Origin: Thiosocius teredinicola
GTDB lineage: Bacteria > Pseudomonadota > Gammaproteobacteria > Chromatiales > Chromatiaceae
NCBI RefSeq assembly: GCF_002009425.1
Contig: NZ_CP019936.1
Location: 729,001-793,000, forward strand
Direction of reading: 5' to 3'
DNA: 64,000 nucleotides
The notes below the pieces were generated by a model. The model was not told the DNA's origin, ran no database searches, and saw only the letters and a program-made list of their open reading frames with translations. Shown here one piece after another: positions 61,442 to 63,737 of this stretch. The position numbers were made by a program, and so were the translations under genes. Position 1 is the stretch's first letter. Each line of letters opens with the position of its first letter.

Positions 61442-61470
61442 CACCCGCAAGCGCATAGCTTGCTAGAGCA

Positions 61471-61502
61471 AAGCCGGCGCCTGTACAGGTGCTGGCTTTT
61501 TT
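61471..61502 (+). terminator. Intrinsic terminator of ilvD
   Basis: The AAGCCGGCGCCT / AGGTGCTGGCTT stem (two G-U pairs) with a GTAC loop is followed by six T. It lies 30 nt after the ilvD stop. Confidence 0.9.
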
Positions 61503-61924: not shown

Positions 61925-62371
61925 ATGACGACAAACTTTTTGAAGGCCATGTGTTTGGGCTTTGTCGCAGCGGGGGTCTGTCAAACGGCATGGTCTGAAG
62001 ACGCAACGATCAATCGACTGCTTGCCTCGCAATGTGCCCAGTGTCACGGGTCCAACGGCAGGGCGGTCGGCGACATGGATAGTCTCGCCGGAGAGAGTGC
62101 CGACGAGATCTATGAAGAGCTGATGGAGATGCGTTCGGAAGACACGCCGGAAGACATCATGGAGCACCAGGCTATGGGTTATACGGAGGATCAGATCCGC
62201 CGTATAGCCGCGTACTACGGGTCGATAGGGGGCGGCAGTTCGGGTTCAGGTTCGGGTGGCAGTGGTTCCGGCGATCATGAATCGGATGAAGACGAACATG
62301 AACGTTCGCGCGACTCCGGCAAGGAATACGAGCGCGAACGGCGCAAGAGACGTGATCGGGACGACGACTGA
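61925..62371 (+). CDS. fccA: Monohaem cytochrome c subunit of flavocytochrome c sulfide dehydrogenase, with a charged tail
   Basis: FccA takes electrons from the FAD subunit during sulfide oxidation in the periplasm. The 148-residue protein has a signal peptide (about 1-24), one haem site CAQCH (37-41) and likely axial Met84 in HQAMGYTEDQIRRIAAYY. From residue 102 it departs from the family: a Gly/Ser linker, then about 30 residues almost entirely Asp, Glu, Arg, Lys and His (DHESDEDEHERSRD and on to the end). I start it at the ATG with AAGGA about 9 nt upstream. fccB follows after 52 nt. The tail is discussed as a finding. Confidence 0.88.
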   Translation: MTTNFLKAMCLGFVAAGVCQTAWSEDATINRLLASQCAQCHGSNGRAVGDMDSLAGESADEIYEELMEMRSEDTPEDIMEHQAMGYTEDQIRRIAAYYGSIGGGSSGSGSGGSGSGDHESDEDEHERSRDSGKEYERERRKRRDRDDD

Positions 62372-62423: not shown

Positions 62424-63692
62424 ATGACTTTCAATCGTAGACAGTTTCTGAAAACACTCGGTGCGGCGAGCGCGGCAATGACGCTGCCGACGACTGTGAA
62501 GGCCGCGGCGACGCCCCGCGTTGTCGTGCTCGGCGGTGGTTTTGCCGGCGCATCCGTCGCCAAGTATCTGCGTGCGTGGAGCGACAAGACCATCGAGGTG
62601 GTGATGGTTGATCCGAACGCGGCACACACCTCCTGCGTACTGAGCAACCTGGTACTCAACAACCGTATTTCACTCAACGAGCTGACGATTTCGTACTCCA
62701 GCTTGTCGTCGTTCTACGGTGTCAACGTCATGCGCGATCGCGCGGCGGAGATTGACGGCACCGGGAAGCGTGTCCGTCTGAACGATGCAGGCTGGATCGA
62801 CTACGATCACCTTGTGATCGCGACCGGCATCGACTTTGTCGACATCCCGGGCCTCGACTTCAATCTGACGCCACATGCCTGGGTTGCCGGTCCGCAAACC
62901 CAGTTGCTGGCATCGCAGGTCAGTTCACTTGGGCCGAGTTCGACCTTCATCATGACGATACCGCCGTCGCCCTATCGGTGCCCTCCAGGGCCCTACGAGC
63001 GCGCCTGCGTGGTGGCCGACATACTCAAGCGCAAGGGCTACAACAACGGCGACGCACGTGTTGTCGTGCTCGATGCCAATCCGTCGATCCAGGCAGAACG
63101 GCACACCTTCGAGCAGGTGTATAGCCAGCTGTACCGCAACATCATCGACTATGTTCCCAATGCCACGCTGAACGCCGTCGATTCGCAACAGCGCATTGTC
63201 GATACCAGCGCAGGCGAGTATCGGGGCGACGTCGTCAATGTGATCGCGCCGCAACAGGCGATGGGTTTCGTGCGTGAATCCGGGCTTACCGGAAGCGGGC
63301 TCTGGGCAGGCGTCGATCCGCTGAGCTATGCATCGACGCAATCCGGTTTCGATGGGGTCCATATCATCGGTGATACCCAGGCGACCGGTCAGCCGAAGTC
63401 TGCGCATATGGCCAATTCGCAGGCCAAGGTGTGTGCCGATGCCATCATCAGGATCATCAACGGCATTTCGGTGACCGCCCCCGAGCGTGTCGCAAATATC
63501 ACGACCAACTCGGCCTGCTATAGCCCGGTCAGTTACGATCAGGCGTCGTGGCTAACTGCCAATTTCTCGTACGATGAAACGAGTCGCCAGATGATGCTGA
63601 AGCATCTTGGTGAGGCGGAACGATGGAGCAAGGACAACTATGAGGAGATGTTCGCCTGGGCGAGCAATCTCTTCACCGACTCCTTCCATTGA
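62424..63692 (+). CDS. fccB: Flavoprotein subunit of flavocytochrome c sulfide dehydrogenase
   Basis: This subunit oxidises sulfide to polysulfide/sulfur with covalently bound FAD and passes electrons to FccA. The 422 residues include a Tat-type signal (NRRQFLKTLGAAS), FAD-binding VVVLGGGFAGASVAKYL, the FAD-attachment cysteine in HTSCVLSN (Cys71, or about 42 after signal removal), and the two redox cysteines in PYRCPPGPYERAC (Cys186) and NSACYSPVSYDQA (Cys365), all as in the Allochromatium enzyme. The second nucleotide-type domain and C-terminal fold are complete. A perfect terminator hairpin follows the stop. This makes FccAB a two-gene operon. Confidence 0.95.
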   Translation: MTFNRRQFLKTLGAASAAMTLPTTVKAAATPRVVVLGGGFAGASVAKYLRAWSDKTIEVVMVDPNAAHTSCVLSNLVLNNRISLNELTISYSSLSSFYGVNVMRDRAAEIDGTGKRVRLNDAGWIDYDHLVIATGIDFVDIPGLDFNLTPHAWVAGPQTQLLASQVSSLGPSSTFIMTIPPSPYRCPPGPYERACVVADILKRKGYNNGDARVVVLDANPSIQAERHTFEQVYSQLYRNIIDYVPNATLNAVDSQQRIVDTSAGEYRGDVVNVIAPQQAMGFVRESGLTGSGLWAGVDPLSYASTQSGFDGVHIIGDTQATGQPKSAHMANSQAKVCADAIIRIINGISVTAPERVANITTNSACYSPVSYDQASWLTANFSYDETSRQMMLKHLGEAERWSKDNYEEMFAWASNLFTDSFH

Positions 63693-63704: not shown

Positions 63705-63737
63705 GCAGACTGCGCAAGGCGTGCGCAGTCTGCTTTA
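63705..63737 (+). terminator. Terminator of fccAB, shared with the convergent gene
   Basis: A perfect 12-bp stem (GCAGACTGCGCA / TGCGCAGTCTGC, loop AGGCG) with a short TTTAT tail, 12 nt after the fccB stop and 12 nt from the stop of the oppositely oriented gene. Confidence 0.75.

Follow-up and report, generated by a model that had tools for sequence, protein, structure and literature searches.

Variable charged C-terminal tails on the haem subunit of a branch of predicted flavocytochrome c sulfide dehydrogenases that includes Thiosocius teredinicola

The fccA gene of Thiosocius teredinicola lies at positions 61925 to 62371 on the forward strand of the 64,000-nucleotide stretch of DNA that we analyzed (the window), and encodes a monohaem cytochrome c subunit of 148 residues with a C-terminal tail. 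The product matches PF00034 at 24.8 bits (cut-off 21.3) and its closest match in a PDB sequence search was 5n1t_B (E = 2.9e-14); matches to scFv and fusion constructs were discarded because they are due to the Gly/Ser linker region, leaving only haem-domain relatives as credible. A putative Sec-type signal peptide, identified by eye, covers approximately residues 1 to 24 (61925 to 61996), and is followed by the haem-binding motif CAQCH at residues 37 to 41 (62033 to 62047) and by Met79 (62159 to 62161), the likely sixth ligand, which is invariant across an alignment of 34 sequences. The tail comprises the 47 residues from 102 to 148 (62228 to 62368) and begins with the Gly/Ser linker GGGSSGSGSGGSGSG (residues 102 to 116, 15 residues, 62228 to 62272). 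The tail DNA holds a weak 6-base tandem repeat at 62238 to 62257. A 32-residue charged segment follows the linker (residues 117 to 148, 62273 to 62368). Of its residues 25 are charged, namely 8 D, 7 E, 8 R, and 2 K, and another 2 are H; it ends in RDDD, with the terminal Asp-Asp-Asp at 62360 to 62368.

The translation agrees with the preliminary description, made from the sequence alone, of a Gly/Ser linker and a charged stretch ending in RDDD. Among 43 comparison open reading frames (ORFs) picked mechanically within the window (nonoverlapping, at least 120 amino acids), fccA is the only one with at least 50% charged residues in its last 47 positions, and the hydrophobic fraction of those positions, 0.02, is the lowest of all, the next being 0.30. 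The additional claim that acidic residues come first and basic ones later holds for this tail, in which mean relative positions are 0.63 and 0.76, respectively, but fails for the group, in which basic residues lie further C-terminal in 12 of the 25 long tails that hold both kinds. AF2 modeling with 34 relatives (alignment A1) gave a mostly confident FccA core, with block means up to 92, and low pLDDT values of 47 to 55 for the linker blocks (residues 101 to 130). Residues 128 to 145, within the charged segment (62306 to 62359), were modeled as a charged helix with a pLDDT of about 82, and the tail may therefore not be wholly disordered. Neither a lipobox nor a C-terminus of the Gly-rich, hydrophobic, and Arg type was seen by eye in this FccA, and an NCBIfam scan gave no such model.

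Downstream, fccB (62424 to 63692, forward strand) begins 52 bases past fccA and encodes a flavoprotein of 422 residues with a TAT signal and matches to PF10518 and to PF21706, the FCSD central domain (108.3 bits, cut-off 27). Its PDB match is 5n1t_A (E = 3.4e-67), which we take to be the flavocytochrome c of Thioalkalivibrio paradoxus (5N1T), just as we take 3VRD to be the FccAB of Thermochromatium tepidum. The C-terminal flavin-binding domain PF09242 scored 19.2 bits over residues 362 to 421 (E = 0.0017), below the cut-off of 26. FccB retains Cys71, Cys186, and Cys365, each aligned with a conserved cysteine of relatives, so the claim that fccB keeps its catalytic cysteines stands; presumably Cys71 is the FAD link, while Cys186 and Cys365 form the redox disulfide. 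Counted over 57 FccBs of the branch defined below and 5 ordinary FccBs, Cys186 and Cys365 occur in all 57 branch members and Cys71 in 41, with Pro, Asn, or Ser at residue 71 in the remaining 16, in which the covalent flavin link may consequently be lost. Two additional cysteines are conserved in the branch, Cys195 (56 of 57, against 2 of 5 ordinary proteins) and Cys337 (57 of 57, against 2 of 5), and possibly form a second disulfide.

A hairpin with a T-run 3' of ilvD (61470 to 61499, forward strand) and a perfect 12-bp inverted repeat 3' of fccB (63705 to 63733, forward strand) mark the upstream and downstream limits of the fccAB unit; a consensus scan called neither of them as a terminator, and returned no sigma-70-type promoter. 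The T. teredinicola genome, a single contig, encodes a second fccAB (C1:3076959-3078584) whose FccA is of the ordinary dihaem kind, with a core charge of 0 and no tail, and this pair is an internal control for the tail. The genome also contains dsrA (643 bits), which fits a sulfur-oxidizing life, and two Prc-family matches above cut-off.

FccAB commonly serves as a marker enzyme for the oxidation of sulfide. Structures are known from Allochromatium vinosum (1FCD), Thermochromatium tepidum, and Thioalkalivibrio paradoxus, and passages of the same account describe FccA as tightly bound to FccB (PMC12010331). The T. teredinicola locus resembles these systems in its two-gene fccA-fccB unit, its CxxCH haem domain, its FCSD central domain, and its conserved catalytic cysteines, but departs from them in that FccB belongs to a separate branch, the FccA core is acidic, a 47-residue tail is present, and PF09242 stays below cut-off. 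We predict an active flavocytochrome c sulfide dehydrogenase of a distinct branch. The enzyme itself is known; what is new is a pattern that extends across the branch rather than a single tail.

From 84,980 species genomes we recovered 58 loci by a pattern scan, of which 57 were used, and an fccB match adjoins fccA in 56 of the 57. These loci and members found through FccB make up a branch set of 65 FccAs. Excluded before counting were a partial match (L072), repeats (L073 to L075, and L078, L079, L084, and L085, which repeat L032, L058, L020, and L063), L091 (G014), and L082, from which no FccA was parsed. In a maximum-likelihood tree built from 68 FccB rows (without L015 and L068, which lack a full fccB, L061 with masked bases, L035 with a broken ORF, and L065 with a disrupted ORF), 8 ordinary rows were separated from the remainder with a split support of 100/100. 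The T. teredinicola enzyme falls on the branch side of this split and its FccA carries the branch motif [LIV]A[AS][QN]C[AF]QCH. Within its own order, 8 of 210 genomes (T. teredinicola included) match at an E value of 1e-72 or better, and two of these eight, G409 and G535, have an ordinary, tail-less FccA; all eight remaining genomes of the genus miss this threshold. The patchy spread of the branch suggests horizontal transfer or repeated loss.

For controls we used the regions upstream of ordinary fccB genes from class, family, and order searches, which gave a parsed FccA at 47 of 49 loci (32 monohaem and 15 dihaem; L131 and L082 gave none). None of the 32 monohaem controls reaches a tail of 14 residues or extends more than 8 residues past the haem domain, and this bears out, as does the organism's own dihaem FccA, the earlier statement that the normal subunit has no such tail. 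In the branch, tails of at least 14 residues occur in 29 of 65 FccAs, including that of T. teredinicola, and the other 36 fall short of 14 residues, in a set that is not a random sample, because most of it was collected with six search patterns, two of which were tail peptides. A tail-independent, FccB-anchored search of the class recovered six branch members with tails of 34 (G344), 12 (G107), 13 (G297), 17 (G221), 2 (G355), and 18 (G043) residues. The tail is thus a trait of the branch and not a peculiarity of one genome. The preliminary description had allowed that it might prove common in the subfamily, and this is borne out by the 29 but not by the 36; the latter, being almost tail-less, indicate that the enzyme does not need the tail. 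The branch also differs in the charge of the FccA core, with a median net charge of -5, compared with 0 for the control proteins (p = 1.2e-11 by the Mann-Whitney test, kinship not corrected), and a value of -11 in T. teredinicola.

Branch tails range from 0 to 128 residues. Taken together, the long tails contain much D, E, G, and S, and hydrophobic residues are scarce in most. By net charge, 22 of the 29 are negative and 7 are positive. On the FccB tree the long-tail state requires 10 changes, at least 9 of them forced by well-supported branches. Turnover is also visible at short range: among 12 pairs compared, the seven close ones with long tails share 81 to 99% core identity, but the tails diverge and shift in length, as in L036/L037 (core 97%, tail 57%) and L016/L017 (core 84%, tail 30%). 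With sequence, length, and sign of charge all varying, neither tail sequence nor charge sign is conserved.

Extensions are found at the other end as well. Long N-terminal extensions, scored by eye, occur in 12 of 65 branch FccAs, mostly with lipobox-like starts and Asp-rich spacers, and require 6 changes on the FccB tree, 5 of them forced; two members, L086 and L088, carry beta-type repeats in theirs (PF13629, 39.9 bits on L088). Thiomicrorhabdus chilensis has two fccAB pairs near each other (L046:1093-5497), and in one of them FccA resembles a lipoprotein and is extended at its N-terminus. GlyGly-CTERM/rhombosortase and lipoprotein anchors are known anchoring systems, and some branch relatives resemble them, in their lipobox-like N-termini or in the C-terminus of L019, whereas T. 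teredinicola FccA does not. L019 (L019:3914-4462) is a Thalassotalea FccA that groups with T. teredinicola on the FccB tree (99/80). Its C-terminus consists of a stretch rich in Gly followed by a hydrophobic helix and RRMRK, and its genome encodes a rhombosortase (183.6 bits, cut-off 84). The GlyGly-CTERM model did not match L019, however, NCBIfam giving no sorting-signal match for this C-terminus.

Amid this variation, the last residue is comparatively constant. Asp occupies this position in 46 of 65 branch FccAs, compared with 3 of 47 ordinary FccAs and with 14 of the 251 mechanically chosen flanking ORFs that have 180 or more amino acids (fccB included). Of the 29 long tails, 22 have Asp at the end, where the composition of these tails predicts 5.5, and the excess persists in Asp-poor long tails (10 of 13, against 0.9 expected) and after thinning to 70% core identity, when Asp ends 15 of 24 representatives and 3 of 39 controls (p = 5e-6, Fisher test). 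A different residue ends 19 of the 65, including all four that have no tail at all. Terminal Asp is encoded by GAT in 25 cases and by GAC in 21. We considered whether the last Gly and Asp codons might reflect a Shine-Dalgarno sequence (GGxGAx close to the start of fccB) and rejected this, because in the junctions inspected a ribosome-site-like stretch usually lies 3' of the fccA stop and because the two codons are about equally used. The unrelated DUF5666 proteins mostly end in acidic residues too (36 ORFs by a crude rule, from 40 regions), and an acidic end may hence be common among exported proteins generally.

We tentatively interpret the tail as a flexible charged arm that would keep the haem domain loosely engaged with its partner and whose end would resist tail-specific proteolysis. 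This is the likeliest of the readings considered, but we give it somewhat less than even confidence. The haem subunit of the branch would carry a fast-evolving, mostly disordered charged appendage, in which the Gly/Ser linker and charged arm tether the haem domain flexibly and permit a loose, mobile encounter with FccB, the next electron carrier, or both, the arm taking the place of a fixed docking surface. Simple mutual attraction between the subunits is not expected, since the FccA core (-11) and T. teredinicola FccB (net charge -10) are both acidic, and the seven net-positive long tails mean that no single electrostatic partner fits. The acidic C-terminus may in addition cap an exposed end against periplasmic tail-specific proteases (Prc/Tsp). 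In passages of one source Prc is described as binding nonpolar C-termini, with polar C-termini in some of its substrates (PMC7481392); as the protease favors nonpolar ends, an acidic end would be protective.

By analogy, the nearest measured precedent for such an arm would be CytC552 of Thioalkalivibrio paradoxus, the acceptor of thiocyanate dehydrogenase, whose disordered extensions have been proposed to give mobility in the intermediate complex with that enzyme (PMC9456337). Like the FccA considered here, in which part of the tail is putatively disordered, CytC552 is a monohaem periplasmic cytochrome of a sulfur oxidizer, and its terminal extensions, lying beyond a conserved core, are disordered; unlike in that FccA, they are rich in histidine, occur at both ends, and serve a different partner, thiocyanate dehydrogenase, and the two are likened by description and not by sequence. 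A passage of the same paper states that CytC552 differs from all other cytochromes c in its disordered terminal extensions enriched in histidine (PMC9456337), a claim of uniqueness on which the branch tails bear. The literature on flavocytochrome c with disorder, tails, or lipoproteins, covered mostly at the level of titles and abstracts, yielded no description of a tailed FccA. An acidic haem subunit and fast-changing charged arms across the branch suggest a different, looser mode of docking, and the branch offers, in its tail-less, short-tailed, long-tailed, N-terminally extended, and anchored-looking members, natural material for the study of disordered tails in periplasmic electron transfer.

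Several other explanations must be weighed against a flexible arm. The functional element could instead be the extreme C-terminus itself (Asp, often as HDD, GDD, or RRD), acting as a signal for recognition or protease evasion that was kept across at least nine gains or losses of a tail serving only as a variable linker; we regard this as conceivable if rather doubtful. Somewhat improbable, too, is a low-complexity extension under almost no constraint, lengthened and shortened by replication slippage, tolerated because it is soluble and selected for solubility only. The wide range of tail lengths, the highly variable composition (including GT-dipeptide and KA-type repeats), the loss of tail identity between close pairs, and the weak tandem repeat in the T. 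teredinicola tail favor slippage, but tails are restricted to one flavocytochrome c branch and absent from all monohaem controls, most have few hydrophobic residues, and terminal Asp is far above composition. An outright artefact of frameshift or annotation is scarcely credible and already contradicted: third-position GC is indeed lower in the tail (0.55) than in the core (0.70), but the other two frames give no cytochrome-like ending, in-frame tails of at least 14 residues occur in 28 other branch members, and the genome is in a single contig. The frameshift that the preliminary description had named as a possible refutation thus falls away.

That description had also proposed a tether to a polyanionic or polycationic surface, a sulfur globule envelope, or the membrane. 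One specific charged surface is not supported by tails of either sign that share no sequence, and nothing connects the tail to sulfur globules. Anchoring in general keeps some standing because relatives carry lipoprotein-type N-termini (by eye) or the L019-type C-terminus, and we therefore considered the appendages as tethers or spacers at the membrane or cell surface, realized in each lineage by lipidated N-termini with spacers, C-terminal anchors, or charged tails. The repeated changes in N-terminal extension, several of the extensions being lipobox-like with Asp-rich spacers, and the grouping of L019 with T. teredinicola are in keeping with this, but the T. teredinicola tail lacks a hydrophobic or lipid-anchor element, NCBIfam gave no sorting signal in L019, and the sign of tail charge is not conserved, so that we consider a surface tether unlikely. 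Very unlikely, in our estimation, is that the Asp-, Glu-, and His-rich appendages bind metal ions (Ca, Cu, or Zn), either to buffer them or to form a structural site close to the enzyme. H-D or H-E is abundant in the tails of L021, L023, L039, and L076, the N-terminal spacers resemble DxDxDG repeats by eye, and, by the title of a cited reference, the T. paradoxus flavocytochrome c structure was solved together with the copper protein CopC; against this, the T. teredinicola tail holds only two His, the K/E-, Thr-, and GT-rich tails of relatives are without ligands, and the Pfam calcium-repeat domain was not found in the extended relatives scanned.

We also considered neighboring genes as candidate partners of the tail. 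Genes for a DUF6502 and a DUF5666 protein both lie beside fccAB at 11 of the 57 contig loci (L016, L017, L020, L036, L037, L039, L040, L041, L051, L060, and L069), and each gene taken alone is found in 12 of 57, L042 and L050 having one of the two; the association is also noted at G107:C22:15366-16124. Pfam confirmed the domains on two DUF6502 and three DUF5666 members. In the class sample DUF6502 occurs in 5 of 6 genomes with a branch FccB against 94 of 363 others (Fisher p = 0.006), and in 99 of 369 class genomes overall, but it is absent from the T. teredinicola genome. A role of the pair as tail partner was rejected on this ground and because the acidic ends of DUF5666 proteins are independent; these proteins being mostly acidic-ended by themselves, the shared acidic end is no link to FccA. 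The neighboring DUF5666 gene encodes GxGGTG-type repeats and a low-complexity tail of its own.
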